From assembly GCA_026120035.1 (NCBI GenBank), contig JALRME010000011.1, forward strand, positions 1,076,127 through 1,140,126: 64,000 bases of DNA. Reading direction: 5' to 3'. Made by a program: the position numbers and the translations under genes. Positions 19,051-64,000 of this stretch are shown here, one piece after another (positions within the stretch are counted from its first letter, which is position 1; each line of letters begins with the position of its first letter). The notes beneath the pieces were generated by a model. It ran no database searches, was not told where the DNA came from, and saw only the letters and a program-made list of their open reading frames with translations. This DNA is from Coleophoma eucalyptorum (Eukaryota > Ascomycota > Leotiomycetes > Helotiales > Dermateaceae).

Positions 19051-19055
19051 CTATT

Positions 19056-19406: not shown

Positions 19407-19564
19407 GAAAGAGGCAATACGACGTATATACTATATATATATACGGCTATTGCGAATCTACGTTAGCTATTCGCTATCTAGTAAGGTTAATACCCCTATT
19501 TGGAAAGAGGCAGTACAACGTATATACTATATATATACGGCTATTGCGAATCTAACTAGCTATT
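19407..19564 (+). repeat. Direct repeat in the retrotransposon leader
   Basis: Two copies of a roughly 62-base unit (19407-19471 and 19503-19564), each containing GAAAGAGGCA, a TATATA run and CGGCTATTGCGAATCTA. Confidence 0.85.
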
Positions 19565-22500
19565 TGACTTAATAACATCATTCTAATATCCTTAATTGGA
19601 CTAAGAATTACATCAAAAAGGACCGAAAAACGTCACAAAACAATATAACGAAAGTACCCTCTACGAAGTACTTTCATTCGATTACCAACTAGGTAACACT
19701 ACGAAACCGAAACCCCTCCGTATACCCCTCGAATACCCTACGAATCAATATCATATAGGATGGCAGAATCTAACGTATCTACAACTACTAAAGGCAATAC
19801 AAACACTACGAAGGATCTCGACTATTGGACTATATAGGAGGAAGAATTCGATACCATCGATAAAAAGTATATAGAGGAATATATATAGTTCAAACTAGAT
19901 GACTACTGTAAACTGGTGGAATGGGACGAGGCAACGGGACGGTAGAATGTGCAACCGATCGGAGGAACCTTGTTCCTACCCGGTAATGCATATATATTGG
20001 TCCCTGGCTATCATACAAATCATTATCGACTTACGGATGAAATGATTGGGCCATGGAAATCGAGGACGTCGACCAACCAAACTACCTCCTTCGTAGCTCT
20101 TCTTTAGTTATATCATTATAGGAATCATTTAGTTGAGACTCCTAACTACTTGTGTCTTTGTTGTATATTGTCGTATCCCAAGAGAATGAATTGAACTACC
20201 TTAAACCACATATCACCATTTATACTACGAACAACGTAGTATAGTCGACAGTAGATTATAGACTAAACTATACGAGGATTTCTCGAAATTTATAATTGAA
20301 ACCTTCTCTATCGCCGCTATCGCTATATAACGTTATATATACTACGAACTTCGCCGGGTAGGAGTATAGATACGAACGAAGCCTAAGAAAGGCGAGAACA
20401 AGAATAGGAATACTATATATGCTCAACTGCTATATGAAATCATCCAGAAGGATAAGAGACCTCCGTGGACTCCATAAGGCCTATATAAAGTCAAAGAGAA
20501 CGCTAGTAGTAAAGGGCTACATTCCTTCCAACTACGTAATACTATACCAAATAACTTGTTACCTAACGAAGGCTTATTACCTAATACTCAACCTACTATT
20601 ATACTAATTCCAATATCAAACCCTAGTATTCCAATACCTCAATCGTTGCTATATACCTAGGCATAGGCTAGAATACCACCTTAAAACATAACTTAATTCA
20701 CACCCGAGACGCCTCTGAATAGGACCTTATAAGCTGAAAATCAACTACGACCTATATACGAGGCTACTAGTAAGGAACCTACGCCCTTAGGCAAGGCTAT
20801 AAGCTAGCAAACCTAGGCTATTAATCCAATCGTATATAGAAAGGAAATCTCTATATACACGAAGATGTTCATAGAGAATATAACATACGATAGAACCAAT
20901 AATAGTATTGACTTCAAACTCAAGATCTTCTACGAGGCCTATAAGAAGTCAAACGTACCCCTAGGAGTATACCACCTAGTATTATTAGCTATACTCTTAG
21001 GTATAGCATTAGAATACTACTTCGCATACGACCTTAGAGATATACCATTCCAGAAGGCTATCACTAGGCTTAAAGCTTACTTCGAAAGCTAGGAATTCCA
21101 ACGCAAGAACCTTTATAAATAGAATACGATCTTACTACGTTCTATAATAAACGAGAACGAAGGAAAGCCTATAACAGACTATATTATATTACTCGTTAAT
21201 AAGCTTATACTAATACAATATAGACTCTCTCAATCATTACGTAATATAGAGTTTCTTATAAGCAAGGTTATAATAGTATATCAAAGCGTACCAATATACT
21301 AATTCGCCCTAACAGATATACCTAACGAAATATTAGTTCTTACGAGTCGATTGTAGTTATTAATTTCGATATAGGAGGCATAACGTAACGACGTACCTAC
21401 GAGCCAAACATACTATATAGATCGACGATATTACAATCGAGAATCGTCGAGAGGTTAGAGTCGACAACCCTCGCGAATAAGGTCGATCTCGCAATAGAGA
21501 CACCAAAAACCTCGATATTTTATCTGTTTTAAGGAGGACTATAGATCCTACAATCATATACCATAAGAACAAGAAGATACTCGAGAGAGGTTCAAGAAGA
21601 AGAATAACCTCCAAAGGTATAATAACCAACGCCTTAAAGGCGTTCTACGTTAATATATTATAGAATTCGAAGGCGAAAAAAACGACCTTAAAGAAGACGT
21701 CCAAGAAGTATTCTAAATGTTATCTATAGAAATACCAAATACGCCTACGATAGTAATATCGTTAGAATAGCTCGACGACGAGGATATAAGGTATTACTTT
21801 ATATCATTCAATTAGGTCGATAGCAAGTATAGAATAGAGCTTATAAATAAGTTGAATAACAAGTTATACCTTTACGCATTCGGTATAGATACTATAGAAC
21901 CGATTTACCCCGTCGGGTAGGTTAAATCGAACGACACACTAGAAATACCTATATATAACGATATCGACGATATCGAGGATCAGAATACCTATAACTATAT
22001 TATAAATACTCGATACTCGAACGAGACCTTTAGAGGTATCGTTATCGACACTAGAGCATCCAATAGATCTACCGTAGGCTACAACCAATTTCTAGCACTC
22101 TAGAAACTCGATACAATAGTAAGCTTGAATACCGATATAAAAGGACTCGTTAGCGTATAATTTAGTATAGGCACTATATCGTTAATAGGATTAATTAACG
22201 TAGATATACCTATTGGAATCATCTAATTCTATATTATCGAAGTCGATACACTATTTCTACTATACCTAGTAGATATAGATAGATTGAATGTATACTATAA
22301 TAACCTCGATAATACGATCAATTCACCCACAAAGAAAATACCTATAATTCGACGTTATAGACACCCGTTTCTCCTTTAGAATAATATACTAAGTAGCTAT
22401 ATAACTACAACATTCACCTAGGATCTATACTACCTAACTACGACTGAATTACGAAGGCTATATCGACGATTTGGCCACCCATCCGTAGAAAGGCTACGAC

Positions 22501-25205
22501 GAGTTCTAGAACGATTAGGCTACGAAAACGTCGATAAGGTGACGCTAGAATATCTCATAAAGTTCTATCACTATTACCAAATATATAGCAAATCACCTAG
22601 GAGGTTTAGATTTACCTTAAAGGACGATATCGACTTCAACTACTCTATAGTCGTCGATATATTCTATATCGATAACCTACCGATATTATATATGATCGAT
22701 AAAGCTATAAGATTCCAAGCTACCAGATGGCTAGTAAACATCTCTATAAAATACATCTAGGATGTACTACGCGTATGTTAGATCGATACCTATCTAGGCC
22801 CACCTAACTTTATAACCTACGATACTAGTAAGAACTTTATAAGCTAGGAATTCAATTACTACGCTATAAACATAGGTATTACAACCAAGGTAGTACCTAT
22901 AGAGGCATACAACTCGATAGGTATAGTAGAGAGGTACTATAGCCTACTTCGTCGAGCCTATAAGATTATAGCAATAGAACTACTAGATCTAAGTAAGGAA
23001 ATAGCACTCTAGATGATACTAAAAGCATTAAACGATACTATAGGCCCCGATAGCCTTATACCGACACTACTAGTATTTAGAGCATTCCTACGTATGATAG
23101 AATTAGATCTACCGAATCCTTCGATTGTAGAACGCTTAAAAGCACTTAGAAAAGCTATAGAAGAAATAAGAAAGCTACGCTTATAACGCTAGGTTTCAAA
23201 GGCACTTTAGATACAAAACAGATCTTTATCAACTATAGTATATAACCTACCTCTAAACGTACCTATTCTCGTATGGAGAGAAGGCCTAACAAACTAGGTA
23301 GGTCATTAGGTAGGACCTTATAACCTTATAAGTATAGAAGGCGAAACATATACCTTACGATTGCTATATAGCGCTACGCAATTTCGTACTACATCCGTAA
23401 AGCTATATTTCGAAGAAACCGGAAATAACGCCGGAGTCGACGCTAGGATCGATGCTATAGTATTACCAGAAGAGTAGGTAACGCCTATACAAACTATACC
23501 TATAATTCCTATAAAACGAGATAGAGGAAGGCTACGAAAATATCCAATTAATATTACAGAAGTCTACCTACATTCGTTAACGATTTACCTAGCTAGGCTG
23601 GCTAAATCAACCTTCGAAGAATCATATAAGAAAGAGGTCAAAGGATTACTCTAAAAAGACGTATTTCGACTCGTTCAACCCTCTAAGATACCACTAGGAG
23701 TACGTATTTTCAAAGCTTGATTTATGGATAGTATAAAGAACGAGGAGAATAAGCTATACGCTAAATCTAGGCTAGTTGTATAGGTATATAACGACGACGG
23801 CAAGAGGCTAGTTCTTATAGAATCACCTATAATTCAAAGAATGAGCTAGAGACTTATCCTCTACCTAGTAGCTATGTTTATAGGTACAGATACAAACTTA
23901 TACCTACGTAATATATCTTAGGTATACGTACAATTCAAAACGACTCTAGCTCGTGATTTCTATATACGAGTATCATACGAACTCAGTTAGGCATTAGGAG
24001 CCGAAGAAGGTACTATTATAAAGGTTTTACGATCCTTATACGACATTCTAGAAGCAGGCAATCACTAGTTTAATATATATTACAAACATTATATTAAGGA
24101 GCTTAATATAGCACAATCCACGTACGATACGTGCCTATTATATACCAACTCAGATACGACTGTATTCGGCATTATAGGCCTCCAAACCGATGATACCTTA
24201 TTCCTAGTAGATAACAAATTCGCTACTATAGAACAAGAACAACTTACTAAGGTAGAATTCCCTATAAAACCTTATAAGTAGCTTATACCTAAACATTCAA
24301 TCAAGTTCAACGGAGGTATGATCGAACTATAAGGTGAAACTATATATCTAAGCCAAGAACGCTAGTATACCAAATTGTTACCTATTGAAGAAAGGATAGT
24401 TCCAAATAGTATATCTATAGCCGATATAAGAGGTATGCTTATACCAAAGTAACAATATATTACTCAAAGAGCTAGAGGTGCCTATATCGCCTCCGTATGT
24501 CAACCAGAGGCATCATACGATCTATTAGTTGCTGCTTAAGTAATCAATCCTACGAAGGATGATAACATACAACTAAACAAGCGTATTAAGTAGTAGATCG
24601 ATAATAAGTCTAGAGGTCTCAAATTCGTCAAATTGGATATTAAGACTCTCAAATTGATTATATTCGTAGATAGATCTTTTGCAAATAATAAGGATCTATC
24701 GAGTCAAATTGGATATATCTATATACTAGCTGATGGCTCTAATAAGGCCAATATTATACATTAGAGTTCTACTAAGTGTAAGAGAGTTACAAGGAGCGTA
24801 TTAGCCTCTGAACTATACGCTATAATATATGGATTCGATATAGGAATAGTACTAAAAACAACCGTAGAATAATAGCTTAATATCCACCTTCCACTGGTTA
24901 TTTGTACTGATTCTAGGTCAGTATTCGAATGCCTTGTTAAGCTAGGAACAACATAGGAAAAACGCCTTATGATCGATATTATATACCTTCGACAGTTATA
25001 CGAAAGACGTGAAATTATAGAGATAAAGTGGATAGAAGGTGCTACTAATCTAGCTAATACTATGACTAAAAGTAATGCCTCGCTAGCATTAAAACAACTT
25101 ATAGATACGAATAGGATCAACCTATAGGAGGTAGAATGGGTAGAACGTTGAAATAGGAGCTCTAAGAGCATCTGGATTCTCTCTGTAAAAAGAAAGAGTT
25201 GCTAG

Positions 25206-25393
25206 TGTCGGATTGTAATGATATATACTTAGCATATGACCCAATCACGTGGTAGCATTTATTAATAGGATATAACCCTATTTACGATAGACATATATAG
25301 AGAATCAACAACCACCTATAACACACTGTATACCCTGTAATTAAAGCCTACGATGCTATTACGAGGTCTACCCGTTGTAAACGCATACCAACA
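25206..25393 (+). repeat. 3' LTR of the Copia element
   Basis: 188 bases, same boundaries as the 5' LTR, followed directly by the CTATT target duplication. Confidence 0.93.
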
Positions 25394-25398
25394 CTATT

Positions 25399-26313
25399 AC
25401 ATCCCTTGAAGAATAGTAGAACATATTATATTAATACTCTGCAAATTGATTTGCTTATTACAATAATCTTAATTTTTATTGATCTTATTATGATTATAGT
25501 ATGGTGGAAATGCTATAGTATATATCTCTTATTATATAAGCTTATTCTTTATCTAGGAGACCTAACGACAGGGATCCGATATGAGGGCTACGTAGAGGAG
25601 ATATCTAACCTCCGAAATCCATCGGGGTCTGCCGATCTATACATTCGAGTGATACCAGGATGCATGCCAATTCGGCCTTTCCCGATAGACCATATTGTCG
25701 AGTATCTAGTTATCTTATGGTGTTAACACAAGTACTACAGTATGAGCAGTTGTACACTGGAATATCTCTTATCTTATCTTATATTTACAGTACTGTACGA
25801 GTGATATCAAAGATGCAGCAAGCAGCCGCGGTGTGCCACATTGTGCCACGGGCACCCGCCGGTTACCATCAACCAAACCTTCAGTAAATGTGTTTTGGTA
25901 CTATAGCCATGTCCGATAAACCCCACCCTGCTCATAGCAAGTATCTAGTTATCTCATTATCTTATCCTGACATTCCTGACCACAACTGCATCTTAGAGTC
26001 CCAAAATGGGCCACAATATCTATGAAGTGTGATCAAGTCAGAAGCGAAAGGTTATGATTTGGACGCTAATTCGGAATTTCCCGACAGACCACATATATAC
26101 CATTATCGAGTGTCCAGCTATCTTATCAATGTTGTTAGAATATATCTGATGGTCACGGTAGGCTAGATGATTCGACTCCTTATAAAAGACAATGAAACAT
26201 ATAAGTACACGGCCTGACGAGAGCTATGACTTTTTTCGTCATAGACTACTTGTGGCATATATTGTCTTCATAACCAACACCTCGCACAACACTCGCATTC
26301 CTAAGCTATCACA
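25399..26313. other. Gene-free stretch with local repeats and transporter promoter
   Basis: A block near 25669-25720 (AATTCGG...TTTCCCGA, GTATCTAGTTATCTTAT) recurs imperfectly at about 26069-26130, and partly at about 25938. TATAAAA at 26181-26187 lies 133 bases before the ATG of the MFS gene. Confidence 0.45.
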
Positions 26314-33380: not shown

Positions 33381-35313
33381 CTAAGTACTCAACCCATCCC
33401 ATACGCTAGCATTAATGAGCGTTGCAGCTTGTTCACCACAATGAAAGTTGTCACTGTCAGCGAAAAATCCCAATCCAAAACAACGAGACTCGGCGGTGTA
33501 AATTCTTGTTGATATGACAACTCTTTCATTTACGAAGATTTCTAAGACGCTTGTATCGAAGAACGCCCGGATTCGAAGAGTTTCCTCCTCTAATTCGCCT
33601 TTGTCATTGACAAATGTAAATAGAGTATGAGGTGCTGTCTCCAAGTCATGGTTGATACCCTTGTGATTACAATGTGGCCGTTCGACTGTAAATGTTTCCG
33701 ATAAAGATTCCCATGATAATGTAGTACGAGACATAAAATCTGAGCAGTAATATAACATTAGCTATTAGCATGATAGATGGTATAAGGGCCATAAAGGCAT
33801 TAAAGCACTTACCAGCACTATGTCCAATGATAATACCAATACGTGTACAGCATGCTCCTACAAAAAACCTGCTATCGATTTCAAACTTGGACGTTTGAAG
33901 TGGAACGAAACTTTGAAATTCTGGTAAACTAGATTTGAATGGCTGTAGCACACCTGCCTTGATCTCGGTTTGTTGAGCCTTTACTCGCAGCCCTTCTAGC
34001 CTATCTTCTGGTTGGATCTTGAGGGTCTGGAGAGTATGTGTTCCTTGAGTGTCGGCCAAAACTTCAAAAGATGTGATTGACCGAAGATCAGAATGGCGGG
34101 CTCTTGTCACACGATACAAGGTCTCCAAATCCAATACTCTAGGCAGAGACATAAGACCACTCCATCCCTGACTATAACGAAGTTCATCAGGAAGATCTTC
34201 TTCTGTAACCCATCCCCAGACAATGTATCGCTGAGTCTTTGTATCATAAAAGGCATTTGCAGCATAGAGACACCCGTGATCAAAAATACCAGAAAAAGAA
34301 ATCTCAGCTATAGGCTTCTGTGGTTGGTCTTTCTCACTGACAATATTTAATGAAGTCCACAGTTGCGATCGTTGAGTTCTTTTGCTTCGAGCAAGGGGTC
34401 TGAGATCACCAAGGGGTAAATCGCGTGATTCCAGGGAGCCTTCTGCCCCTGTAATCAAAATGTCTCGGTGATGTGCATGGGAGTCAAATAGGCTCACAAG
34501 ACAAGCGACCTCCCAGTTAACTCCCAAATCACCGGACCAGCGTGACAGTTGTAGGTTGAGTCCCACATTTACGAGGTGCCCCACGTATTTCCAATCTCGT
34601 AGATCAGTTGGATTGACGGCGTAAACAAAGACAGTTGGAGTTTTACCGACTATTCCCCCGGAAAGAAACCCATAGAGCTCTGATGTGTCGTTCCGCAGAG
34701 ACGGCCAACGACCAATATAGGGATCGCGAAATCCATAGACATCAATGTCAGGAGGAGGACCTGGAAGGATAGGGTTACAGGATTGTTTTTCCCACGTCTT
34801 GCCTTGATCGCGAGACACTGCTAGACTCAGCGACTCGCAGCCTGTGATGTAATTTTTGGTATAGTGGATGGGAAGATGCTTTACAGATGTGTATACATAT
34901 GTGAGGGCTCCAGAGCTCCCGTCTAGATCTGTGGCCCGAAGGCAACCCGTAAATACACCTAGATGGTCATACTCTGTAGATGGGATCAAGATAGGTTCTG
35001 TTGATGTTGTCCAATTTATTAAATCTGGAGAAGTCGAATGACCCCATGACACATTGCCCCAATCATTCCCTTTGGGATTCCATTGAAATGCCAAATGGTA
35101 CAGACCAGTCGAGGGGTCGTAGCCAGGCCCGCATGGGTCGTTAAGCCACCCAGAAGGTGCTAGAACGTGGAACGACGGGCGGCCATGCAGGACAGGTTGA
35201 GTCGCTTGTAGTTGACATGCCTTTATATGACTTTGAGTCTCTGGAAGATATCCGTTCTCATGGTTTTGAAAGGTCGTGTTCTCAGGTACTGGTAATATGG
35301 CGAGCAGAGACAT
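33381..35313 (-). CDS. GH32 beta-fructosidase (invertase/fructanase)
   Basis: Two exons, 35313-33813 and 33739-33381, encode about 619 residues. The catalytic nucleophile is Asp59 in GWLNDPCG (family WMNDPNG), the transition-state motif is GFRDPYIG, and the acid/base Glu lies in NWEVACLVSL. The C-terminal beta-sandwich ends with RAFFDTSVLEIFVNERVV. It should cleave sucrose or fructans. The first ATG is at 35313; the frame upstream continues through a hydrophobic leader, so a 5' exon supplying a fuller signal peptide is possible. It is divergent from the sugar transporter at 35898 across 584 bases, a classic enzyme-transporter layout. Confidence 0.88.
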
Positions 35314-35897
35314 GAGGAGAGTCAGCGATATCTGCAAAACTGAGGCAACTTGTAATGTAACCAGGGCAAGATTATATTACTGATGAAAGCCGAATGCCTA
35401 CTGACGAAAAATATTTATACATAAACACAATCTTACTGAAATCGAAGATCCTTGCGAACACCAATCCTCATTATGACTCAGTATACGAAAGAGTAATGGT
35501 AAAAGGAGGAATTTCGGTAGTAGGTGCATGAAAACCAATCCTTCTATGAAAGTTTTTCCTTGGCGGCAGATTCAGTCTATATATTGATGAACCATAAATC
35601 CTTTTTATAGTTCCCCATGTATGTCTCGCTGATATCCTCGCTAAATTTATCGCTGAAATAGGTAAATGTGGGGAAGTTGCAGGACTACTCGCTTCAAACC
35701 TGGCAATTATGGGTTTCCCCATAAAACCACCAAATCTCCCCATGGAGAGAAAGAGGTACTAAGTCAACCGAGCAGCCCTTCAAATAGGATCCAGAGCCGC
35801 TCTTCGTCGAATTTGGTAGCTTATACACCTTATCTTTTTGTCTCTTTATTCCTTATTTCTACTCCCATCCTGTTTGTTGTTTAAAAGACATCTCGCA
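35314..35897. promoter_or_regulatory. Divergent promoter of GH32 and sugar transporter
   Basis: 584 bases between outward-facing start codons; co-regulation of sugar cleavage and uptake is an inference from layout. No individual operator can be named. Confidence 0.4.
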
Positions 35898-37525
35898 ATG
35901 ACGCACGGTTCCCCGGATTCCGTCGCCAACTATGGCAAGACTAGTGAGGTCCAGCATGTCGACACTGTACAATCACAACCGACCAAAACCGGCAAAGCCG
36001 TCAACTTCTATCTGCTCTTTGCCTGTGCGGCTTTTGGCTCTGCTAGTTTTATCTTTGGATTTGACGATAAGGTCATTTCGCCAATTGCAGCATTAACACC
36101 ATTTGTGCGTCCATTGACCGTCGTTGTTTCGAATTCAGCTAACAGATGTCGCAGGTTGAAAAATATCAAGGACTTAACCCTGTCACTCAAACCTATGTCT
36201 TTACAGCTCGTAATCAGAACCTTATTTTCTCGGTTCCTCTTGTTGGCTCAATAGCTGGTGCTGTTTTTGCCTCACCCTTAAACAATTACCTTGGTCGCAA
36301 ATGGAGCTTAATGGTCGCATATGTCCTCTCTATAGCTGGTGGAGTTCTTCAGGTCTTTGCTCCACATCTTGGCGCATTTGTTGCTGGCCGATTCATCAAT
36401 TCTATTGGGGTTGGAATTGCAAATTGTACCGCCCCATTGTACCTTTCGGAAATCGTACCTGTCTCAATCAGAGGCGCCAGTGTGACATCCATCAACGTCC
36501 TGTCATCTCTATCTGGAGTCGTCGCTACCCTCATTGTATTTGGGACGGAAAAACTTGGCGGACACAAATCTTACCAAATCCCATTGGCAGTACAGTGTGC
36601 CTTGCCTTTACTTCTTATGGCCATGACTCTTCTTCTCCCTGAAAGTCCACTGTGGCTGGTTGGCAAGGGGCACATGGAACAAGCGCGAGCCAACCTAAGA
36701 AAAATACGAGGATTTAGCGATGCGGAAGTAGAAGATGAACTCCGAGTCATGATAATGTGCGAGGAGAATGAGCGCGATTTGAGCGCTGAGGTCAGATTCT
36801 GGGAGATTTTCAGTCGTCAAAACCTCAAACGAACATTGACGGCAGGGTCATTCTACTCTCTTAACCAAATTTCTGGTATAATTCTTTCAACCACCTACGC
36901 CACACTATTTCTGGCGCAGATCGGAGTTGGTAATGCTTTTGAGCTGACAGTTATTGCTGCATGCTGTTCTCTTGCTGGGACCATTGCTGCTCCATTGCTT
37001 ATCGATCGTGCTGGCCGCCGCCCTCTCGCCCTCACTGGCATGGTTATCCTTTTCATCATCGATGTGGTAGCAGGAGCTCTCGCTTTCTTCCCAGATAATA
37101 GACAGGCTCTTCTTTCGATTGCCGCCCTGTCATTTATATTCAATTTCTTCTGGTCGTCGTCATTCTACTCCATCTCTAACCTCATGCCAGCAGAAATAGC
37201 TACCCCAAAGCTTCGCAACCACACTATGTCTTATACCGTAGCCTGTTGCCAGACCACTGCAGTTATAACTACTCTCGCAGTTCCACAGCTAACATCAGCA
37301 GATGCTGCAAATCTTGGCTCTAAGACATATTTGGTGTTCGCTGGCTGCATGGCTGGTGTCATTGTATTCTCTTTCTTCTTCATGCCTGAAACCAAAGGAC
37401 GTACATTTGCTGAAATAGATGAAATGTACGATGCAAAGATCCCTATGTGGAAGTGGCGCAATTTTCAGACTTCAACAGACGCAAAAACAACTGTTGATCC
37501 TTTTTTTAAGGGCATAAGTGGATAG
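35898..37525 (+). CDS. MFS sugar porter (hexose or oligosaccharide/H+ symporter)
   Basis: Exons 35898-36104 and 36146-37525 (41-nt intron) join to 528 residues. Supports are FGFDDKVISP in helix 1, the helix 2-3 loop NYLGRKWSL, LPESPLWLVGKG in the middle, DRAGRRPLALTG, and the C-terminal PETKGRTFAEIDEMY. These are sugar-porter family signatures. Twelve membrane helices are expected in the plasma membrane. Given the adjacent GH32 enzyme, it probably takes up the sugars released, or sucrose itself. Confidence 0.88.
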
Positions 37526-38112
37526 ACAGAGTTAGGGTTAGGATTTCAAATATTGATCTTGTTGGTACATTACCTTTCGTTCTGAGTAATGGCCAAGGTT
37601 CCAAGTTCGAGCTCGGCTTTGTAAGTGCTGTTTGTAGGCTTCGCTGGACCTACTACTCTGGTTCGAACGGTAAAGGTACCGTACTGGCTACACGCTTAGG
37701 TTATCCTTCTTCTGTGAGAATAATCCAAGTGTATTGTAGCTTGCCTCCTCACAAGAGGAGGACTGTAATCCTTAAATACATCAGATATACCCCTCCTCGC
37801 GTAATCACACAGTGGATATACCCTCCATTGTATCGATGTTACCCTTCTAGGGGTTCTACTTAAAGGGTGTAGGTTCGTGGTGGGACAATTAGACAGAAAT
37901 ACAAAGGTTGGCTCGCTTAGCCTTAGTCCATGGAATAGGGGGCTTATTCCAAGATCTATTATATGAGATTTGCGGGGCCAAAGGTCGAGACTCCGCGAAG
38001 CATCCTTGCTAAGCTAGTCGTCGAACTACCCAAGGAGTACGAATCCGTATGGTTTATATAATTAATGTTTTATATGTTAATAATATCACAGACCGAATCC
38101 TCAACTTCACTA
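37526..38112. other. Gene-free stretch
   Basis: No gene. The stretch around 37730-37960 (including AGGAGGACTGTAATCC, CTCGCTTAGCC) resembles degraded LTR sequence, but no second copy is seen in the window. Confidence 0.3.
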
Positions 38113-39840
38113 TCAGTTTTTAGTATCTATTGCCTCTTCAATTTGAACACTATCCTCCACTTGAATTTTTTGCTGAGCGCGCTCGGTATCGATCCCGGTC
38201 TTAGTAGATCCAAACACTATACATACATGTTAATGACCAAGGTAAAGAATTATGGGCTATATGAAAGACTTACAAGCATCTTTCTCCTCAAGAGATTTAC
38301 CCTTAGTTTCGGGAAGAAAAAACCAGACAAATACCGCCAATGCGTAGTTAAAAACACTGAACATGAGAAATAATCTCCATCCCAACTTTTTTACAGCATA
38401 AGGCGTGCTTCGAGAAAAGGCAAAGTTGAACAGCCATTGTGTAGCAATACCAATGGCCACACATAGTTCTCGGATGCGATTGGGAAATATCTCTGATGTG
38501 TAGATCCAAGGTACAGGCCCCCATGAGATGTTGTAACTCACTAAAGGCAACTTCTTAGCACATCCAATCCTGACTTATGTACAAGGGTAAACTTACTAGC
38601 TTCGAGATAAACCATGGCAACAGCAGCGGCACCGGATGGCGTGAAACCTTGCCCAAGTTTTGGGGGGTAGACCTTTGTAAGGATTGCAATGATTAGCATA
38701 TATGAGCCCATGAGGAAAGCTCCACCAAACATCGATCAGCGACGACCAAGTCTTTCGGCTAGTACAAGAACGAAGAATCCGCACGCAACAACTTTTACAA
38801 GACCGAAAAAGCCGGATAGTAGGAGTGCGTTTTCACCCGCACCGATCGCCTTGAAGATCTGAGGAGTGAAGTACGCAAGGGACGTATTGCCAGTCGCCTG
38901 AACACCAATCTGAATGCAGATGACGAGGAGAACTCGATTCCTGTTGGCTGGGAGGAGGAGTTCCTTCCAACTCACGCCTTTTGTTGCTCGCTGCTCTTCT
39001 TCGATGCCTGCTCTGATCTCGGCGAATCTATTCCTCGTAAGCACACGCCCAGCTTGCATTGCTCTCAACTAAGTTGTGTTACTTACTCATCCTCAATTTC
39101 TTGCGTAAGTACACCACCTCGAACCCAGGTCAATGAAGCCATCGCTTTCTCATTATCGCCACGTGTAGCAAGCCATCTTGTACTCTCCTTAGTGAATATC
39201 ATTCCTAGACCGAGGAGCACACCAGGAAAAAGCTGCAAGCCAATAGCTATTTGCCATTGGGCAGTAGATTGCTTCATGTGCTTGCTGACGCCATAATCAA
39301 CCCAATAAGAGGTCATCACACCGCAGGTAAGGAGGAACTGGAATAAGCCTCCTAGCATTCCTCTCATGTGCTTGGGTGCCATCTCAGCCGAATACATGGG
39401 TATAATGACCGTTGCCATGTCGATGCCAGTGCCACTGATGACACGCGCAACGTAGAAGCAAGCAATCGAATGACTGTTGATTGTTTGCAGAACGGCGCTA
39501 GTGTTGAAAATCGCTGATGCGAGTACAAAGGACCATCGTCGACCAAAGCGCCGAGTGAAAGGGAAGGTGAAGCAAGCAAAAAAAGCTTTATGGGGTACCG
39601 TCAGCAGATATCTCAAACATACAGAATGGTTTCTTAAAACACACCACCAGCTTGCAGTAAACTCGTTGAATTGGCGCTCACGTTTGTTGCCCTAGCCGTT
39701 GTGTATCTGAAGTCTGCCTCAAACGACGCCAAAGTAAGAACACCTCCGACGACACCATTATCGTAGGCGAACAGAAATGAACCAATGCAGCAGAGTGAAG
39801 CGAGATACCAGGCTCTGACGGTGCCACGGGAGTTCGACAT
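38113..39840 (-). pseudogene. MFS sugar porter with a single in-frame stop
   Basis: Five exons, 39840-39648, 39585-39087, 39027-38597, 38540-38274 and 38216-38113, join perfectly in frame to 497 codons, but codon 328 (38738-38736) is TGA directly after LAERLGRR, where GRRW/GRRx is expected. Signatures include FLFAYDNGVVGG, RRFGRRWSF, a degenerate PESPRWL as TKESTRWLATRG, SWGPVPWIYTSEIFP and PETKGKSLEEKDA. Every splice site is intact and no other damage was found, so the stop is recent, or a sequencing error. TGG-to-TGA is the simplest change. Function as for other sugar porters. Confidence 0.85.
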
Positions 39841-50149: not shown

Positions 50150-51070
50150 ATGAATGTGCCAAAACTTGATCGACCTACGTCAGCAATTGTCTTTGCTTAC
50201 CACGACGTTGGTATACGATGTCTTGCCGTGCTTTTAGCCCATGGTGTTGATATAAAGATGGTCATCACACATCAGGATGTCCCTTCGGAAAATATATGGT
50301 TCGGCAGCGTCGCAGAGTTTGCCAGACAAAATGGAATTTTGGTGAAGGCGCCCGACAATCCTCACGATGTCGAGACTTTACAGTGCGTTAGAGATATTGA
50401 GCCCGACTTCATTTTTTCTTTCTATTACCGCAAGATTCTCAAGTCAAGCATACTTGACGTCGCGAAACAAGGATGCTATAATATGCATGGATCCCTTCTA
50501 CCGAAATATCGAGGCCGCGTGCCCGTAAACTGGGCGATTATTCATGGGGAATCCGAGACGGGTGCTACGCTGCATCAAATGGTTCCCAAAGTTGATGCTG
50601 GTGCGATTGTCGACCAGATGGCAGTTCCGATTTTGCTCAATGACACAGCTCAGGAAGTGTTCAACAAGGTTTTAGTTGCTGGAGAGATTATACTATGGCG
50701 CACTATTCCTAGTCTTGCCAATGGCAAGGCAGAGCACAAGGCAATGGACATGACAAAGGCCTCTTACTTTGGTGGACGCAACAGAGAGGATGGCCGCATA
50801 GATTGGTCCAAGCCAGCACATGAAATACACAACCTTGTGCGTGCTGTGACACACCCATATCCTGGTGCATTCACAGATACAAGACTGGGTCTTCTTACTT
50901 TCTGGCGCACAGTTCTACGTCCAGAGACTTCCTCAGGTCCACCCTTCATGTTTACAGAAAATGGAGATCTACTCGCAAGAGCTGGAGATGGAGGGGTCCT
51001 GCAGATTTTGAGTGCTGATCTTGATGGTCAATCGATCACTAGCGTACCAGAACCTCTTATTCTTGTGTAA
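50150..51070 (+). CDS. Sugar-nucleotide N-formyltransferase (ArnA N-domain-like)
   Basis: Single exon, 306 residues. The formyltransferase catalytic triad is Asn111, His113 and Asp149, within GCYNMHGSLLPKYRGRVP and PKVDAGAIVDQ. The sequence LLPKYRGRVPVNWAIIHGE-x-ETGATLH follows the bacterial ArnA N-terminal domain and related sugar formyltransferases more closely than methionyl-tRNA formyltransferase. THQDVPSENIWFGSV is another block of that group. It should move a formyl group from N10-formyltetrahydrofolate to the 4-amino group of a nucleotide-linked sugar. It lies 780 bases upstream of, and on the same strand as, a decarboxylase-aminotransferase fusion that could make the substrate. No introns and bacterial resemblance hint at horizontal origin. 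Confidence 0.88.
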   Translation: MNVPKLDRPTSAIVFAYHDVGIRCLAVLLAHGVDIKMVITHQDVPSENIWFGSVAEFARQNGILVKAPDNPHDVETLQCVRDIEPDFIFSFYYRKILKSSILDVAKQGCYNMHGSLLPKYRGRVPVNWAIIHGESETGATLHQMVPKVDAGAIVDQMAVPILLNDTAQEVFNKVLVAGEIILWRTIPSLANGKAEHKAMDMTKASYFGGRNREDGRIDWSKPAHEIHNLVRAVTHPYPGAFTDTRLGLLTFWRTVLRPETSSGPPFMFTENGDLLARAGDGGVLQILSADLDGQSITSVPEPLILV

Positions 51071-51850
51071 CGGACGCTTGTACGGATTTCCTGGTTCCAT
51101 AACCTACTAATACCTACGCATGCGCAACAATAGTATTATAAAACATATTCTAGTATTCGGATAAAGTTTACTTTATTATAGATTCTTAATTATCCCCTTG
51201 ATTATATTACTAAGATTTTGTCTCATATCTAGTTACTATCAATATATTATTAATAGAGAATATTTTGTAAAACTTTTCGATCAAATGACGTATTGCTGCA
51301 TTTGAATAGGATATAAATGACATACGTACTATCTTCTCTGCTTTAGCTCTTCTGTAATTGGTGATGTATCAACCTGAGGATTATCAATCTTGGTACGATT
51401 TGTTACCTAACAAGTCTTGGAACCAACGCATATGTTACAAGTGCTGCAAGGTATGAGTTCGATCAAATAAATCGTAGTCCTTGCATGCCACTCGTATAGA
51501 TAAGGAAGATGATAGGAAGTCTTCTATTTTTGCTTCTCTGTGCCGCTGTCTTGTGCAAACCATAATAATATAACAAGAAAATAAATTGGGCTGCAAATAT
51601 GAACTAGAAGGTCAGATAGCCGCACGTACAGTGGTCGACAAATAAAAACACGGCAATCGAGAAGAACTAAGCCTTCCTCGAGAGAAAGATCCATCCTTGC
51701 GTTAACTACAGGGCGCTAACTTCTGTAAAGCATCCACAGGGAGCTTTACGTACATACATATATACATATACATATATTTCCACTACTCCTCTGCCGAAAA
51801 TGACAAAAAGAGAAGACAATTTTCAAGTTTTATTTCTTTTGCACTCAAAA
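51071..51850. other. Spacer between formyltransferase and fusion gene
   Basis: AT-rich, stop-dense, no gene. The last 100 bases have repeated ATACATATA motifs and presumably carry the fusion gene's promoter. Confidence 0.35.
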
Positions 51851-54199
51851 ATGTCCCCATATACGGCTAAACTGAAGATTCTTGTTGCGGGAGTATGTGA
51901 ATAAGGGTTTATACAGTCTCTAAGAGTTATCTTCTGATCTTATTGCAGGGGGCCGGGTTTATCGGTTCGAATTTAGTTGAATTCCTTCTCGATGGAGGAC
52001 ATCAAGTAATTCTGTTGGATTCATTTACCAATGGCCTAGAAAGTAACATCTCGCACCTGGCTGGGCGGCAAGGACTTGAAATATTACGGTGAGAAAACTT
52101 CCTATTTTGTTTGCGTCTAAACGTTTCGTAGGCATAATATACAAACTCCCTTGGATGGATCTCTCGTTGTGGACCAGATTTATCACCTGGCATGTCCCGC
52201 AAGTCCAAAGCAATATCAGGGAAATCCGATACAAACTTTGAGGACGTGTTTTATTGGCACAGAAAATTTGTTGAAACTCGCGCTTCGATGTAATGCCCGC
52301 CTCCTTTTCTCTAGCACATCTGGTATGTTTCAACATACATTGCTCTGATATTGATGTTGATGTTAACACAGTACTCTAGAAGTCTATGGTGACCCTCTTG
52401 TTTGTCCACAGAAGGAAACATACTTGGGTAATGTCAACCCATATGGACCGCGAGCGTGCTATGACGAAGGAAAACGAGTTGCAGAAGCTTTGTGTTACGG
52501 CTACCAAAAAATACACGGTTCTGAAATTCGTATTGCAAGGATTTTCAATGCATATGGTCCGGGGATGCCTGGGTCTGATGGGAGAGTGGTATCAAGTTTC
52601 ATTGCTGCTGCAATGGAGGAGAACGGAACAATCGCTGTCACAGGGGATGGCTCTGCTGTTCGGTGTTTTCAATACATCTCTGATTGTGTTACGGGACTTA
52701 CCAAACTTATGTCAAGCGACTATTCTAAACCAATGAATATTGGAAGCGACCTTCCCTGTCGAATCGGTGATTTAGCCAACCTGGTTGCGGACCTTGTAGC
52801 GAGTACTAGAAGCTCAAGCCCTCGACCCACCGTTACATACCATCCTAAGCCTGTCGATGATCCGGTCATGCGGCAACCAGATATCTCTCTTGCAAAGAAT
52901 GTCTTGCAGTGGACACCGATTACAAGCCTCGAAGAGGGTCTGAGGCGAACTATATCTTGGTTCTATTCCACATCACAGCGAAATACTCATTGCAAGCAGG
53001 AACAATCAAAGAACAAAACCGATAATGCTCATCTGCCGGAAGATACACTGGTACTATTCAATGAAGTATACGTCATAGGGACCGAGACAAGTAACATTAG
53101 AGCAGCAATGAGCGAGAGTCACCTGTCGGGGAGGGGAAGCTATTCCAAAAGATGCCAGGAAACATTGCAGCAGCAGATCGGCTCATTGTCGGTGATATTA
53201 ACTTCATCGGGGACTTCTGCACTCGAGGTCGCGGCACTGACACTAGATATCAAGCATGGAGATGAGATCATCCTACCTAGCTATACATTTGTTTCAACGG
53301 CAAATGCATTTGCCCTCAGAGGAGCAAAGCTCATTTTCGTGGATATCAGGCCAGACACCATGAACATCGACGAGAGAAAAATTGAGGCTGCAATCACGAC
53401 CCAAACGAAAGCTATCGTACCTGTCCATTATGCTGGAGTCTCTTGTGAGATGGACACGATCATGTGCATCGCAGCTAAGCATGGGATAATCGTGGTCGAA
53501 GATGCAGCTCAGGGTATTCTTTCAAAGTATAGGGGCCGCCCACTCGGCAGTATTGGTCATATTGGGTGCATGAGCTTTCATGAATCGAAAAACATAACGT
53601 CAGGTGGCCAAGGTGGAGCTGTCTTTATAAACGACAAGAAACTAGTTGAGAGAGCAGAGCTTGTTTCGGAGAAAGGCACAGATCGTATACAGCTCCTTCA
53701 GGGGAAACAGGCCTCATACCAGTGGCAATGTGTCGGATCTGGCTCTAGCTTGAGCGAGATCCAGGCGGCTTATCTCTGGAGCCAGCTAGAAGCCTTAGAG
53801 ATGATCACTACCAAAAGGCTATCCTTGTGGAATCGATATAACAAGCTTTTACAACAAACGAGCAATCAGGGACATATTGTTCTTCCAATGGTTCCGAATG
53901 GGGTTCAACACAACGCGCATATTTATTTTGTCCGGGTGCGCACCGCAGCGGAACGAGAAACTGCAATAGCATTCATGAAACGCCGCGGTATTATTACTTC
54001 GTCTCATTACACTCCACTACATGAATCTGCCCCAGGTAAGGTATCGGGATATTTTGTTGGCCGAGATGATTTTACAACACAAGAGAGCACAAGGTTGATC
54101 CGGCTCCCATTGTTCTATGCATTGACTGAGGAGGCTCAGAATAGCGTTGTGGCTGCGTTGAAGGATTTTTTTGAGACCAGACATATGACAAGACTGTAA
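51851..54199 (+). CDS. Fusion of UDP-glucuronate decarboxylase-like SDR and WecE-like sugar aminotransferase
   Basis: Exons 51851-51892, 51949-52088, 52132-52322 and 52380-54199 join to 730 residues. Residues 1 to about 320 are an extended SDR: GGAGFIGS for NAD binding, YHLACPASPKQYQGNP and STSEVYGDP, then catalytic Tyr152-x3-Lys156 in NPYGPRACYDEGK. These blocks are typical of UDP-glucuronate decarboxylases. After a short linker, residues about 345-725 are a DegT/DnrJ-type PLP aminotransferase: PSYTFVSTANAFALRGAK, VVEDAAQG (Asp499) and SFHESKN with PLP Lys528. It is very close in pattern to bacterial WecE. All introns are in the SDR half. Predicted role: make a 4-keto sugar nucleotide and aminate it. 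Confidence 0.88.
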
Positions 54200-58216: not shown

Positions 58217-59910
58217 TCACTGCGCTTTCTCGATGGCCTTCAGCATCCTAGGAGTCGTTTCATTGTCAAGAAGCTTGAGGTAACGTCCTTTACAAGTTTC
58301 TGTCAGCTTCAACAGCTTTAGGGACATCCTATTCAACTTACCACAGCTCAACCACCTCTTTGCCACGACTCTCAAGAACTTTCTCAGAGTCCTCAACCTT
58401 GCCAATCCTTCCTTTGCATCGAGTTCCATCGACAGCCTTTCCGTTGTAATCACTGCCGCTTTGTACACTGAGTAGGTAATGAACGGCGGAAAGTAGTTAA
58501 ATTCAATGGTTCGTGTTCCTATCGTGAAGGGTTCGACTATGCTGGTTATGGTGGAGAGGATGCTGATGAGAGAGGATGTGGAATTCCAATTCTCAGCTGC
58601 GTTGGTTGAGAAGGATAATTTCGTGTCGTTCTCAAATGCCAGGAGGAGGGCGCTATCTAGACGTCAGATCAACGCGCCAACATAATAGATCCTAATCTAC
58701 GAGGGTTGGCAGCTTACCTATAACATACACTCAACCCACCAGAGTAGAGGTGGTCCTGGGCCCCTAGCTCCTCAGTCAGAATCGTCTGGAGGCTGATTGA
58801 CGTTTTGACGGTCAACATCATCTCTTGCACATTAAACATCTGCTCTGATGCAGGACTGTTCACGGTGGTATGAACCTTATCCAGCATAGCAGAAGCTTCT
58901 ACTAGGCGACCAAAGCAGGAAACTGGACTATTTTTATCCTGACTGCCTCCATGTGTTGGACAAAGGGCAGGCATTAGAAATTCATGTAGCAAGTCCGTTT
59001 GAGGGCGAGTTAGAGAAGCATATGGGCCTGATTCGGCGGCGATATATCTAGAAGCAATGAGACAAAACCTTCAACAAGGCTCCATTTCTGGGAAATCTCT
59101 GAAGGCATAGCTTACCTATCCAGGATCAGAATCCCACACCAAATCCAAATTGTCTCATCATTACTAGCTACTGCATCTGAACGGGAAAGTTGTAAAATAT
59201 CTCCCCCAGGATAAACTTTAAGTGCATCTGCAGCTCTCACCGTGGCTCCAATAGAGATATAAGCAGCTGGATAGAAGCCATGGCCGACTTCAAAAAGAGT
59301 TATCAAAATTCTTGATTGAACGATTGAAAAAGAATTAATTCCAAGCCCTTCAGCTAAAGCAAGGCTACTCCTGGTCTGAAGGTAAAGGGTTTTAAGTTCA
59401 GAGGTATCATCATTACCGTCTGCAATCGAAGAAGGGCTGGTGGTGAGAAGTAGAATAGAGAGGCAGAGTAACGCAATATCCAGAGAGGTCTTGTCCCATG
59501 TCGATGAGATTCGACTTGGTAATTTAGGTGCAATCGGAAACCACGGCTCAATTGCTTGCTGATACGCAGAAACTATGTTTGCTGGCGTAAAGAGCTCGAG
59601 TTTATGGATGACTGCGTTCTTGAGGTGGCCTGGTACAATCGGCTCCGAGGCAAGAAGTATCCCGGATTCTGGGGATTGCAAAGGGATTAAGCCCAAGCCT
59701 GATACACTAGAGCCATCATACTGGCATCTTCGACCGAACCTGTAAGCCATCTTAGTTAGCAATGTTGTACCTATCGAGGTCAACTCAATATTCATCCAAT
59801 TACCTTGTACAGAGTCCACAAGCCGGGATTGCGCGGTCGCATCGCCTTTTCGATTTGCTGCATTGAATACAAGCTTTCTTGGCTATTATAGCAGGGCCTA
59901 GTGTGCTCAT
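58217..59910 (-). CDS. Zn2Cys6 fungal transcription factor
   Basis: Exons 59910-59804, 59739-59116, 59047-58718, 58652-58342 and 58287-58217 join to 480 residues. A complete Zn2Cys6 cluster spans the first intron: CIQCSKSKRRCDRAIPACGLC, then TRFGRRC, giving all six cysteines. The remainder is a fungal-specific MHR region (FTPANIVSAYQQAIEPWFPIAP, CYSALLLAFEN). It is shorter than many relatives. It is divergent from an NmrA-like reductase gene across 529 bases, so it may act as that gene's local regulator. Confidence 0.85.
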
Positions 59911-60439
59911 CTTAGTGATCAGGAGAGGAAGATTCTTTATTTCCGAAAGTGTCTCTTGGAGTTGATGATAAGAGAATATTACAAAGCAGACAGCGCAAGG
60001 GTCCAACAACGTCCCTGGTGCGATTACGTGACTCGTGTTGTTCGACCGCTAGAGTAATCAGCAACCATTATGCCGACTTTGGGTGTATGCAGGCATTGCT
60101 TCAGCTATAACGAGAGTGGTACCGCGGGATACGTGGTGTATATGCGATGCGGTTGCGGATTTGACGCGGGAACTGCTTTGTCAGAGTGGGAGGATCCCCG
60201 CAAAACAGGGGTCTGCAGGCGGGATATGCGGACACGAATCCGGACGCGAGCGGACCTTTAATCATCTAGGTTAATCTGGTCAGAGTAATAGAAATCATGG
60301 ATTCATCTCAATACGACTCGGAAATGAATATATAAAGGACATCTACTCGCTCTACAAATGAAAGTTCATCAGCATTTCTTGTTTGCAAAATCATCAATTT
60401 GGGCAGAACAACTTCAGCACCCCCATCGCCATCTTCATT
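59911..60439. promoter_or_regulatory. Divergent promoter of Zn2Cys6 regulator and NmrA-like gene
   Basis: 529 bases between outward-facing ATGs. TATATAAAGG at 60329-60338 is about 102 bases before the NmrA-like ATG and is a good TATA-box candidate. Zn2Cys6 proteins often bind CGG half-sites; CGG occurs at 60152-60154 (GCGGTTGCGG) and nearby, but no binding site is established. Confidence 0.45.
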
Positions 60440-61396
60440 ATGTCTGATATCAAATTAGTTGCAATCGCCGGTGTATATATTCCACAAGGAAAAGTTTGCG
60501 GAGATAACTAACAACTTAACTAGGCCTCTGGCACGCTTGGGCCTTATGTCCTTAAAGCACTCACCGACGCAAAATTCCAAGTCAAGATCCTTACCAGGTC
60601 CAAGAAGCCTGGAGAATTTGATGCAAGTATCGAGGTAGTTGAAGTCGACTTCAACTCCATCGAGTTTTTGACTGCTGCGCTCAAAGGTGTAGATGCAGTC
60701 GTATCCACCGTGGCCGGTACAGCCATCAAATTTCAGACTACGTTGGTCGATGCTGCTGCCGCTGCTGGAGTAAAGCGCTTTATTCCTTCTGAGTACGGCT
60801 CTGTTACTACCAACCAAAAGTTAGAATCGCTTCCTCTCTACGAAAACGTGTTCATGATCAGGCATCGCCTTCAAGAAAAGGCAAATGCAGGACAATTGAC
60901 CTGGACGGTGCTTGCGTGTGGAGCCTTCCTGGAGTTCCTGTTTGTGGCGGGCGATGCGGGCCTCATAGATTTTGCAGACCGCAAAGTTACGTTGTTCGAC
61001 GGGGGGGATAACAGGATTAGTTCTACTTCTCTCGAGACGGCCGGGCGGGCTATCGCGGCAATTTTGAAGAACCTAGAGGCCACCAAAAACAGGATCGTAA
61101 AAGTTTCGGAGGTAATATTGACGCAGAATCAGTTATTGACAATCGCAGAAAGATTGAGGCCCGAGGACAAATGGGAGATTAGTAAGGTTGCTGCAAGTGC
61201 GGTTTTGAAAGAGGGGCTGGATGGATTCCGCGCTGGCAACATTAGCCTTGCAGTCATTACCAAGATTATTCAAGGTACAGGATTTGCCGGCGAAACATAC
61301 GGCAGTGCTTATGACGAGACGGACAACGAGCTTCTTGGAGTCAGGGACTTGACGGAGGAGGATTTGAAGAAGATATTGGCTCAGAGGCTTGCATAG
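60440..61396 (+). CDS. NmrA-like / isoflavone-reductase-like NAD(P)-binding protein
   Basis: Exons 60440-60472 and 60524-61396 join to 301 residues. The join restores the dinucleotide-binding loop VAIAGASGTLGPYVLKAL. Other supports are VKILTRSKK after beta-2 (basic residues preferring NADPH), GVDAVVSTVAG and GVKRFIPSEYGS, all typical of NmrA and isoflavone-reductase-like proteins. Members are either reductases of small aromatic molecules or redox-sensing regulators; this one keeps a full-length C-terminal domain. The substrate is unknown. It is divergent from, and possibly controlled by, the Zn2Cys6 regulator at 59910. Confidence 0.88.
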
Positions 61397-61709
61397 ACCG
61401 CACACTTGGAGGGGCAAGATGTTACGAACACATGACAGCTGATGGCCTGAGGCTCGGCGAAGGAGGCTCGCACAGAGAACCATCAGTGGAGATCACGGGA
61501 TCGCAATACATCACGTGATTGGATCAGTGGATCAGTAGGATCAGTGAGTGATCCAAGTGATCCAACTGATCCATGGGGTACGACGGTCTATATAAGTAAA
61601 TAGTATTTCCTTAGTTTAGGAGCTTCGTACTTAACTCAAATAATATCTTTTGACTGTTAGTAACGTAGTTCACACTCAACCTACCTACTACCTATAACAC
61701 ACCTACCTG
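61397..61709. other. Gene-free stretch with GATCA-rich run
   Basis: About 61515-61573 holds repeated GGATCA/GATCC-type words (ATTGGATCAGTGGATCAGT and following), a small irregular repeat just past the NmrA gene. Confidence 0.6.
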
Positions 61710-62834
61710 TAAGAACCTGACATACTCAGAATAGACAATTGGGAATCCAGATATATGTTATGTAACCAAAAATATATCATATGACCCAAGACCATATGCG
61801 TAAGCGAGTATAAGCAGAGTCGGAGGGGTTTCGGACCTAGTAAGCATATAAGAGGGATATATCATAGAATTTGGTTTCTTTCTCTTCTTCTTTTCTTATC
61901 TTTTTTGTGTCCTTCGTACGAGACCTATAGGATATAGTCAATATAAGGTTATTATGCTCCTAAACACCTCTATCCTACTATTGATCAAACCTATGTCTTC
62001 ATAATATTCATTAAAGTGCTCTAATTATTCTAGAGATATTTCATTATCTATCTAGCTATTTTCGGATACATCGGCCCTCTAGCTAGCTAGGAATTACTCT
62101 CGAGGGTACTAGGAATCTAGGTGATTTTTGCCTTTGAAAACGATATACGGAGGAATAGTCCAACCTTATGAATTAACTCCCTAAATAATTATAACCTATT
62201 CTCGATTACTAGGCTAACGTAGCTTTGGTCTAGTCGTACCGTCGGAGCTTATTATAACGATAGTAGTTCTAATTTGTCCTATTAAAAACCTAGTCTTATT
62301 AAAGTTATAGATATCCTCGATACGTATCTTAAATTTCGTAATAAAATTTGTTATAAGCTTAAACCAAGCTTAAATCTTTACTAGATCCTTATAAAGTGCT
62401 CTCTGATTATCGTACGAACGCGTTTGATATATTTTTAGTTATAGTTATCGTTTTATAAAGTTTGTAGCCTATTTCTTTCTAATAGGTAATACGTCGCGTT
62501 CACGAAGGAGGAGATTGGCTATATCTTTAATACTACTAATTGTAAAGACATAGGTTTGATCAATGGTAGGATAGAGGTGTTTGGGAGCACAATAACCTTA
62601 TATTGACTATATCCTATAGGTCTCGTACGAAGGACACAAAAAAGATAAGAAAAGAAGAAGAGAAAGAAACCAAATTCTATAACATGTCCCTCTTATATGC
62701 TTACTAGGTCCGAAACCCCTCCGACTCTACTCATACTCGCTTACGCATACTGTCTTAGGTTATATGACATATGTTTGATCACATAACATATATCTGGATT
62801 CCCAATTGTCTATTCTAAGCATGTTAGGTTCTTA
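61710..62834. mobile_element. Inverted-repeat (foldback) element or two inverted LTRs
   Basis: Left arm 61710 to about 61999 and right arm about 62547-62834 are near-perfect reverse complements over roughly 290 bases. Both arms start from the outer ends with TAAGAACCTGACAT/TAAGAACCTAACAT and share AGACAATTGGGAATCCAGATA and TTCGTACGAGACCTATAGGA. The spacer of about 550 bases is AT-rich without a coding frame. The left arm could start at 61708 as TGTAAGAACC, an LTR-like beginning, so this may be two LTRs in opposite orientation or a non-autonomous foldback transposon. No target duplication is clear. Confidence 0.75.
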
Positions 62835-63126
62835 TATTACCCCCCTCCTTTTGTGACTGTTTGTCCTTAAACAGTGTCGGGGGCGATACGGTGGGTTTTC
62901 GGGGTGGAACAAAGAAAATCCTACCTAGTATTGTTGATTTCTATTGACACAAAGGACAATACTAAGGATCTTAGTATTGTCGATTTTGAACAATAGCAGT
63001 AGGTAGATATAAGCCAAGAAATTTCCTCCTAGCTTTCTCTCTTTCTTTCTTTCTTTGGCTTCCTGAAAAAATCACAAATCGTACGTATGCCTCCAGACTT
63101 GTTGTTTGGATACTGACTTATGTAGA

Positions 63127-63153
63127 CAATCAATCAATCAATCAATCAATCAA
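63127..63153 (+). repeat. CAAT tetranucleotide microsatellite
   Basis: Six to seven tandem CAAT units. Confidence 0.9.
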
Positions 63154-63206
63154 CGTAGGTTTATAGTCGAGGGGGTTTCGTAGGGGTTTCGGTCTCGCTA
63201 ACCATA

Positions 63207-64000
63207 AGTATAGCGTCATACCTGTCCCTGTTCCCGCCGGTGCCCTCCCGGGTGCCTACCAAGTCTGTTGCGTGCGGTGCCTGCGTCGTATGAAGGTCTA
63301 TAGGGATCATAATTGTGATTTCTCAAAGAAATCATCTAAGAAGTATGCGTACTACACACAGCAGAATGCGGCGTATGTTCCGGTAAGTTCCTTATAGTTT
63401 CCTACTCCGAAACCCCTCCGACTTAGCTTATACTCTATAGCTGCCCTGGTTCGTGAAGGAGGAGTTCGTGGCTCTTTGGGTGTATGGGGAGGAAGGAGAG
63501 GTCCGGGCTGCCGCGGTAGCGCTAGATGAAGTCCTATTGGTAGCCGATGCGGAGGCTCCAAAGGACCTTGCCTCCTACCAGATAGCTCTTCTGGAGGAGA
63601 CTCGGTTCCTACGGGCCGAAACTCGACGCCTTTGGGAGCAAGAGGAGGAGTTCCGGAGGGAGACTCGTGCCTTTATGGCAGAGGCTCGCGCCTGGATGGA
63701 GGTAAGTTCTGATTTAGATCCGAAAGCCCTCCGAATCAGTTCTGACATCCATAGGGGGTAATGGTAGAGAGGGGTGCGGCTGCTAAGAAGGCGCCCACCA
63801 AGAAGGGTGGAAAGAGGAAGTGGGGAGAGGTCGGGGGGGATTCGGCTTTGGGGGGTACTACTACCACCACTGGCTTTGGTCCTGTCGGGACATCCCGAGA
63901 ATTAGGGTTAGGGTTAGGGTTAGGGTTAGGGTTAGGGTTAGGGTTAGGGTTAGGGTTAGGGTTAGGGTTAGGGTTAGGGTTAGGGTTAGGGTTAGGGTTA
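63207..64000 (+). CDS. Subtelomeric zinc-finger-like/coiled-coil gene truncated by the telomere
   Basis: Exons about 63207-63382, 63441-63701 and 63755 onward keep one frame. The first has a Cys-rich motif (CCVRCLRRMKVYRDHNC) like Cys motifs in dispersed fungal repeat-encoded proteins, but later cysteines of that pattern are Tyr. The second has an acidic coiled coil (LEETRFLRAETRRLWEQEEE). The third is basic and Gly/Thr-rich (KKAPTKKGGKRKWGE). From 63902 the frame passes into TTA GGG codons (Leu-Gly) with no stop before the end. The 5' end is unresolved; an intron at about 63155-63206 ending in TATAG is likely. The protein family is not recognised. Confidence 0.5.
63902..64000 (+). repeat. 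Telomeric TTAGGG array
   Basis: Sixteen perfect TTAGGG units plus TTA reach the window edge. The G-rich strand reads outward 5'-to-3', which marks this as the right chromosome end. Confidence 0.98.

Follow-up and report, generated by a model that had tools for sequence, protein, structure and literature searches.

The terminal 64 kb of contig C4 (JALRME010000011.1; 1,140,126 bp) in the 45 Mb genome of the ascomycete Coleophoma eucalyptorum, analysed here over its full 64,000 nucleotides and called the window, carries two neighbouring plus-strand genes that probably form a nucleotide-sugar pathway toward UDP-4-deoxy-4-formamido-L-arabinose (UDP-L-Ara4FN), with early steps taken from families outside the arn system and fused into one protein. 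The first is an intronless formyltransferase (FT) gene (50150..51070, 306 aa); the second (51851..54199, 730 aa, four exons) joins a short-chain dehydrogenase/reductase (SDR) of the UDP-xylose synthase (UXS) decarboxylase type to a WecE-type aminotransferase (AT) dependent on pyridoxal phosphate (PLP). The proposed route leads from UDP-glucuronic acid (UDP-GlcA) through UDP-4-keto-pentose and UDP-4-amino-4-deoxy-L-arabinose (UDP-L-Ara4N) to UDP-L-Ara4FN. The UXS domain would oxidise and decarboxylate UDP-GlcA to the 4-keto-pentose, the fused WecE-type domain would transaminate this at C4 before, or instead of, its reduction to UDP-xylose, and the separate FT, to judge from its orthology, would add a formyl group from N10-formyl-tetrahydrofolate; within the fusion, the keto intermediate could pass more readily from one domain to the next. 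An earlier note on this DNA, made from its letters, had proposed a three-step formamido-sugar route acquired at least in part from bacteria. Our analysis supports such a route at the level of sequence, as the three domains look intact and FT is of arn kin, and bears out the partial acquisition, as two of the three domains are plainly bacterial in type.

FT contains the Pfam domains PF00551 and PF02911 and reaches 409.7 bits against the NCBIfam model PRK06988 (cut-off 316), as compared to 152 bits against the methionyl-tRNA formyltransferase model fmt (cut-off 201.5). Its best solved matches are ArnA formyltransferase, and pairwise comparison gives 41% identity with the formyltransferase portion of E. 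coli ArnA, against 29% with E. coli Fmt. The open reading frame of this ArnA-like protein is intact, and Asn111, His113 and Asp149, the residues picked out in the earlier note and which we take to be catalytic, are invariant in 15/15 aligned rows, the window's included. A 31-row tree places FT among the arn formyltransferases and separates it, with support 100/99, from E. coli Fmt and from the Fmt-like exons of the same genome; both Fmt rows are long branches, and the genome's own row is a partial pair of exons. That pair, at G000:C6:112123-112636, probably belongs to the mitochondrial methionyl-tRNA formyltransferase of the fungus; FT scores best (151 bits) among the four frames of the genome that match fmt, the likely genuine Fmt on C6 being split into exons. 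Scores, tree and pairwise identities together rule out a methionyl-tRNA formyltransferase, and the phylogenetic grouping with such enzymes that the earlier note had named as evidence against its proposal was not what we found. A bifunctional ArnA, with formyltransferase and decarboxylase fused, is ruled out as well, FT being a separate gene.

The gene context of FT relatives in bacteria was then analysed using the FT alignment, which matched at least 594 stretches, 579 of them encoding a relative; the best 80 loci were kept. Relatives of ArnB, ArnC and UDP-4-keto-pentose synthase (U4kpxs) lie in the same locus as the FT relative in 72 of the 80, and the other eight loci are shorter than 10 kb, with one or two of the three missing. 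Because arn relatives share their loci, the bacterial kin of FT are, on this contextual evidence, the split form of ArnA, that is, stand-alone UDP-Ara4N formyltransferases. Loci L153 and L154 come from the bacterial group that lies closest to the fungal FTs and contain relatives of arnT, arnB, arnC, FT, U4kpxs and arnD in a row. FT and U4kpxs exceed their NCBIfam cut-offs in L005 and L007, where the matches to ArnB, ArnC, ArnD and ArnT are the best available and all fall under theirs; in the family of Solimonas soli, the source of L007, 3/58 genomes hold the FT gene at E <= 1e-60. The neighbour of the fungal FT is the UXS-WecE fusion, not arnB, arnC or U4kpxs. ArnA formyltransferase acts on UDP-L-Ara4N, and in bacteria ArnD later removes the formyl group. 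The position of FT's kin beside arn genes points to UDP-L-Ara4N as the substrate rather than to 4-amino sugars in general, and the sugar made would most likely be 4-deoxy-4-formamido-L-arabinose.

Fungal-side FTs fall into two groups in the 31-row tree, one around the window (98/95) and one around Aspergillus (99/100), their union being without resolution. A 47-row tree joins all ten into a single clade, supported at 94/95 and present in 92% of 200 bootstrap trees, within a 99/99 group that also holds 14 bacterial rows, including L153, L154 and proteins named Stenotrophobium and Nevskiaceae; L007, from the same family as L153 and L154, lies on the opposite side of this tree. The ten also group together in a 94-row quick tree (83 SH-aLRT). 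Among these proteins, only P0001 (Coleophoma) and P0060, P0093 and P0112 (Aspergillus) are labelled as fungal, and P0002, P0003, P0006, P0069 and P0090 are called fungal-side by sequence and tree position. As the union was not resolved in the 31-row tree, a single origin of all fungal FTs is likely rather than shown. FT is of proteobacterial arn origin, and no viral source was seen among viral contigs, where relatives reach 30-35% identity at best (7 loci).

In the fusion gene, three small 5' exons precede a long open frame. According to a model drawn by eye from GT..AG sites and the reading frame, exon 1 (51851..51892) begins the NAD-binding motif, exon 2 follows at 51949..52088, and exon 3 (52132..52322) ends inside the T-S-E catalytic motif; exon 4 (52380..54199) encodes the remaining SDR with CYDEGK and the DDPxxR Arg, a linker and the entire AT with its PLP lysine, and the introns measure 56, 43 and 57 bp. 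This completes the single gene for an SDR and a WecE-like aminotransferase described in the earlier note, with a whole UXS-like SDR domain now modelled. The best solved match of the SDR is UDP-glucuronate decarboxylase 1, aligned with E 1.8e-94 over residues 8-319 of 321. The UXS motifs TSE and CYDEGK are retained, as is the Arg of DDPxxR, with roles assigned in part from PMC10338323. In the SDR tree, the base of which is without resolution, the fungal rows (5/6 of them partial) stand together with 100 SH-aLRT; their clade lies within UXS, well away from the ArnA dehydrogenases, and its stem measures 1.39 changes per site. Against PRK11908, the ArnA dehydrogenase/U4kpxs model, the SDR reaches 29 bits (cut-off 294), the 591-aa frame tested holding part of the domain only, and a U4kpxs query outscores the fungal SDR in 31/31 bacterial loci where the SDR matched. 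Loci comparison, score and tree thus rule out orthology to ArnA dehydrogenase or U4kpxs. The best SDR match among 398 Pseudomonadota genomes is about 52% identical (115/398 match at E <= 1e-60), a match in rhizobial plasmids reaches 52%, and the plant proteins listed are 43-56% identical over parts of the fusion query.

Two motifs of the fungal SDR depart from other UXS. In FNTYGP, Ala replaces the Thr after FN in all four fungal rows that cover the site, as compared to Thr in 22/22 other UXS, and in YGDPxxHPQ, Cys replaces His in both fungal rows that cover it, relative to the same 22. PMC10338323 describes UXS-type enzymes able to release the 4-keto product; with T126 or N179 altered, the decarboxylase EvdS6 formed hardly any reduced product, and the keto product remained. 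By our own mapping, T126 would be the T of TSE, and N179 possibly the N of FNT. The altered neighbour of this Asn hints that the fungal SDR may release the keto-pentose; it is only a hint, because the presumed equivalents of T126 and N179 are both kept.

The AT belongs to the WecE type, with 531 bits against NF008687 (WecE; cut-off 375), compared with 202 bits against the ArnB model (cut-off 631), and its best solved match is 4piw, named dTDP-4-amino-4,6-dideoxygalactose transaminase. The PLP lysine is retained (SFHESKN), and identity to the bacterial WecE-type proteins listed is 52-57%. Within bacterial WecE, the six fungal AT domains cluster together (100/97); the nearest rows are the standalone protein P0145 (98/88) and then P0138 and P0139 (95/85), with enterobacterial sequences beside them. 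An ArnB query outscores the fungal AT in 72/72 bacterial loci. Orthology to ArnB is ruled out by the trees and the loci comparison, which carry this exclusion because the ArnB proteins of L005 and L007 also miss the model's cut-off (340 and 317 bits). The position of the transaminase in the tree indicates kinship with proteobacterial WecE, and among viral contigs we saw no source for it, only relatives at 28-46% identity (6 loci). The closest of these in identity, at L133:1404-2453 on an IMG/VR viral contig, encodes a WecE-like aminotransferase that shares 46% identity with the fungal AT.

Nineteen positions that hold one residue in at least 95% of 67 WecE rows carry another residue in all six fungal ATs. 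One of the nineteen is the Glu of GEGG, which is invariant in 67/67 WecE and 72/72 ArnB rows and is replaced by Gln (GQGG) in 6/6 fungal ATs. This replacement could indicate that the fusion makes a UDP-4-amino-4-deoxy-pentose of the other C4 configuration, such as 4-amino-4-deoxy-D-xylose, which is then formylated. We regard such a product as very improbable: P0145, which lies outside the 67 WecE rows, also has Gln, so the change is found outside the fusion too, and the epimer would have to be accepted by an arn-type FT.

The same pair of genes, sought in other fungi as the earlier note had suggested, is present in Coleophoma cylindrospora, where an FT 83% identical to the window's (BP6252_11395) and a fusion 78% identical over 77% of the query (BP6252_11396) have consecutive locus tags, which argues against a chance find in the window. 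Of the best 120 of 6062 matches to the fusion query, five have SDR and AT together: P0121, which is the Coleophoma protein BP6252_11396, and the four metagenomic proteins P0122-P0125. The public model of BP6252_11396 (560 aa) probably lacks its 5' exons, because its start falls inside the SDR domain; the start of P0122, judged by eye, looks like intron read-through directly before the SEVYG motif, near intron 3 of the window gene. SDR and AT trees show like branching among the fused proteins (inner SDR supports 81-99), which suggests to us a single fusion that was then inherited. A ready-made bacterial donor of a UXS-WecE fusion was seen neither among the same best 120 matches nor across 274 genomes from the class that includes Solimonas soli, in which 7/7 matches at E <= 1e-110 cover the AT part only.

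Several points weigh against a route to UDP-L-Ara4FN. Canonical UXS yields UDP-xylose, and WecE itself acts on dTDP-4-keto-6-deoxyglucose. Contig C68 holds a partial frame of 111 aa resembling dTDP-glucose 4,6-dehydratase (TIGR01181, 132 bits, under the cut-off of 365), so that a hexose route keeps some room: the AT, WecE-like by its NCBIfam score, would act on 4-keto-6-deoxyglucose, linked to UDP or dTDP and supplied by a separate dehydratase, FT would make a 4-formamido-4,6-dideoxyhexose, and the UXS domain would supply UDP-xylose only. We consider this unlikely, given that the window's AT, like that of each of the five fused relatives listed, is joined to UXS, that it departs from WecE at the 19 positions described above, and that the bacterial substrate of an arn-type FT is a pentose. 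For the Aspergillus FTs P0060, P0093 and P0112, the best 120 matches of either search include neither a fusion nor a WecE-type partner, and FT may therefore serve other partners in other fungi. Related FTs without a listed fusion in A. wentii, A. bertholletiae and A. chevalieri could even mean that FT formylates some other amine and stands beside the fusion gene incidentally. Such an uncoupling appears distinctly unlikely, since FT and fusion are adjacent in the window and, to judge from their consecutive tags, also in Coleophoma cylindrospora; P0003 (FT) and P0123 (fusion) are moreover each on a metagenomic lgn contig of 16,440 bp, apparently the same one, a reading that rests on the shared size.

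As for the remaining points on the opposing side, no ArnT was matched in the genome with one bacterial ArnT relative as query, an empty result that proves little, and an ArnC query gave two weak matches only. Twenty other open reading frames of the window, of 67 with at least 110 aa, were scanned and contain no glycosyltransferase domain, in a search that may miss short exons. For human UXS1, one study reports UDP-xylose only and no detectable keto-pentose, and itself cites another in which UXS1 released keto-pentose with much added NAD+ (PMC13404148). Beside the FT and fusion genes, no arnC, arnD or arnT was seen. On the supply side, the genome encodes a UDP-glucose 6-dehydrogenase on contig C39 (205 bits to a solved enzyme). 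No UXS other than the fusion was found in the genome; the matches that follow are SDRs of 28-31% identity.

FT and fusion genes lie 780 bp apart on the same strand, about 10-14 kb from the (TTAGGG)n telomere repeats (63902..64000, plus strand) that end contig C4, in agreement with the subtelomeric setting given in the earlier note. The bacterial type of two of the three domains could raise the suspicion of bacterial contamination or of a decayed import. Contamination is ruled out by the telomere-bearing contig of 1.14 Mb, the introns of the fusion gene and the orthologous pair in C. cylindrospora, and full-length open frames with conserved catalytic residues make this explanation as a whole extremely improbable.

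In comparison with the bacterial arn route, the decarboxylase, aminotransferase and formyltransferase steps are alike, and score, tree and gene context in bacteria mark FT as an orthologue. The host, however, is a fungus, its decarboxylase is of the UXS type and its aminotransferase of the WecE type, and the decarboxylase is fused to the aminotransferase rather than to the formyltransferase. The AT resembles WecE/RffA, the dTDP-4-amino-4,6-dideoxygalactose transaminase of enterobacterial common antigen, in its above-cut-off score, identity and PLP lysine, and differs in its fusion to UXS, its eukaryotic host and its changed near-invariant positions. Likewise, the SDR shares the full domain and the TSE, Tyr, Lys and Arg motifs with UXS, whilst its long stem, the change of FNT to FNA and the aminotransferase fusion set it apart. 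Among giant viruses, the UDP-Vio4NAc pathway of mimivirus is similarly a bacterial-type 4-amino-sugar route outside bacteria; it is viral, makes a hexose and is N-acetylating rather than N-formylating, and the term formyl is absent from the main text of PMC10117803. No description of a fungal pathway of this kind was found at the level of titles and abstract openings among the matches listed, which cover open-access literature with most subscription papers outside it.

Further features were observed in the window. Between the two genes and the telomere, a repeat element at 61710-62834 has inverted terminal arms of about 296 bp (61710-62005 and 62539-62834) that are 93% alike; kin copies occur on many other contigs, and 61600-63880 has 97 matches in the genome, a count that includes the window itself. 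An NmrA-like gene (60524-61396) within 58217-61396 adjoins minus-strand frames without a Pfam match, which by eye resemble part of a fungal transcription factor. At 33667-39691, a GH32 glycosidase frame adjoins two sugar-transporter frames, possibly a cluster for sucrose or fructan use. The region 16001-26000 is AT-rich (GC 0.36-0.37), with TpA/ApT up to 1.48 and (CpA+TpG)/(ApC+GpT) down to 0.42, a dinucleotide bias such as repeat-induced point mutation leaves.

Taken together, these comparisons give what we judge to be an even chance to the wider proposal that some ascomycetes own a dedicated route to UDP-L-Ara4FN, built from a keto-releasing UXS, a fused WecE-type transaminase and a captured arn FT, and that its product decorates a surface glycan, glycolipid or metabolite. 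The formamido pentose is an intermediate of bacterial lipid A modification, and fungi would, if the proposal is true, make a sugar not so far known from them and otherwise familiar from that process. The two genes would then offer a test case of a eukaryotic route rebuilt from other enzyme families and one imported gene, and a new decarboxylase-transaminase fusion in which channelling is open to in vitro test; they would also open a way to a fungal glycan or metabolite not described so far.

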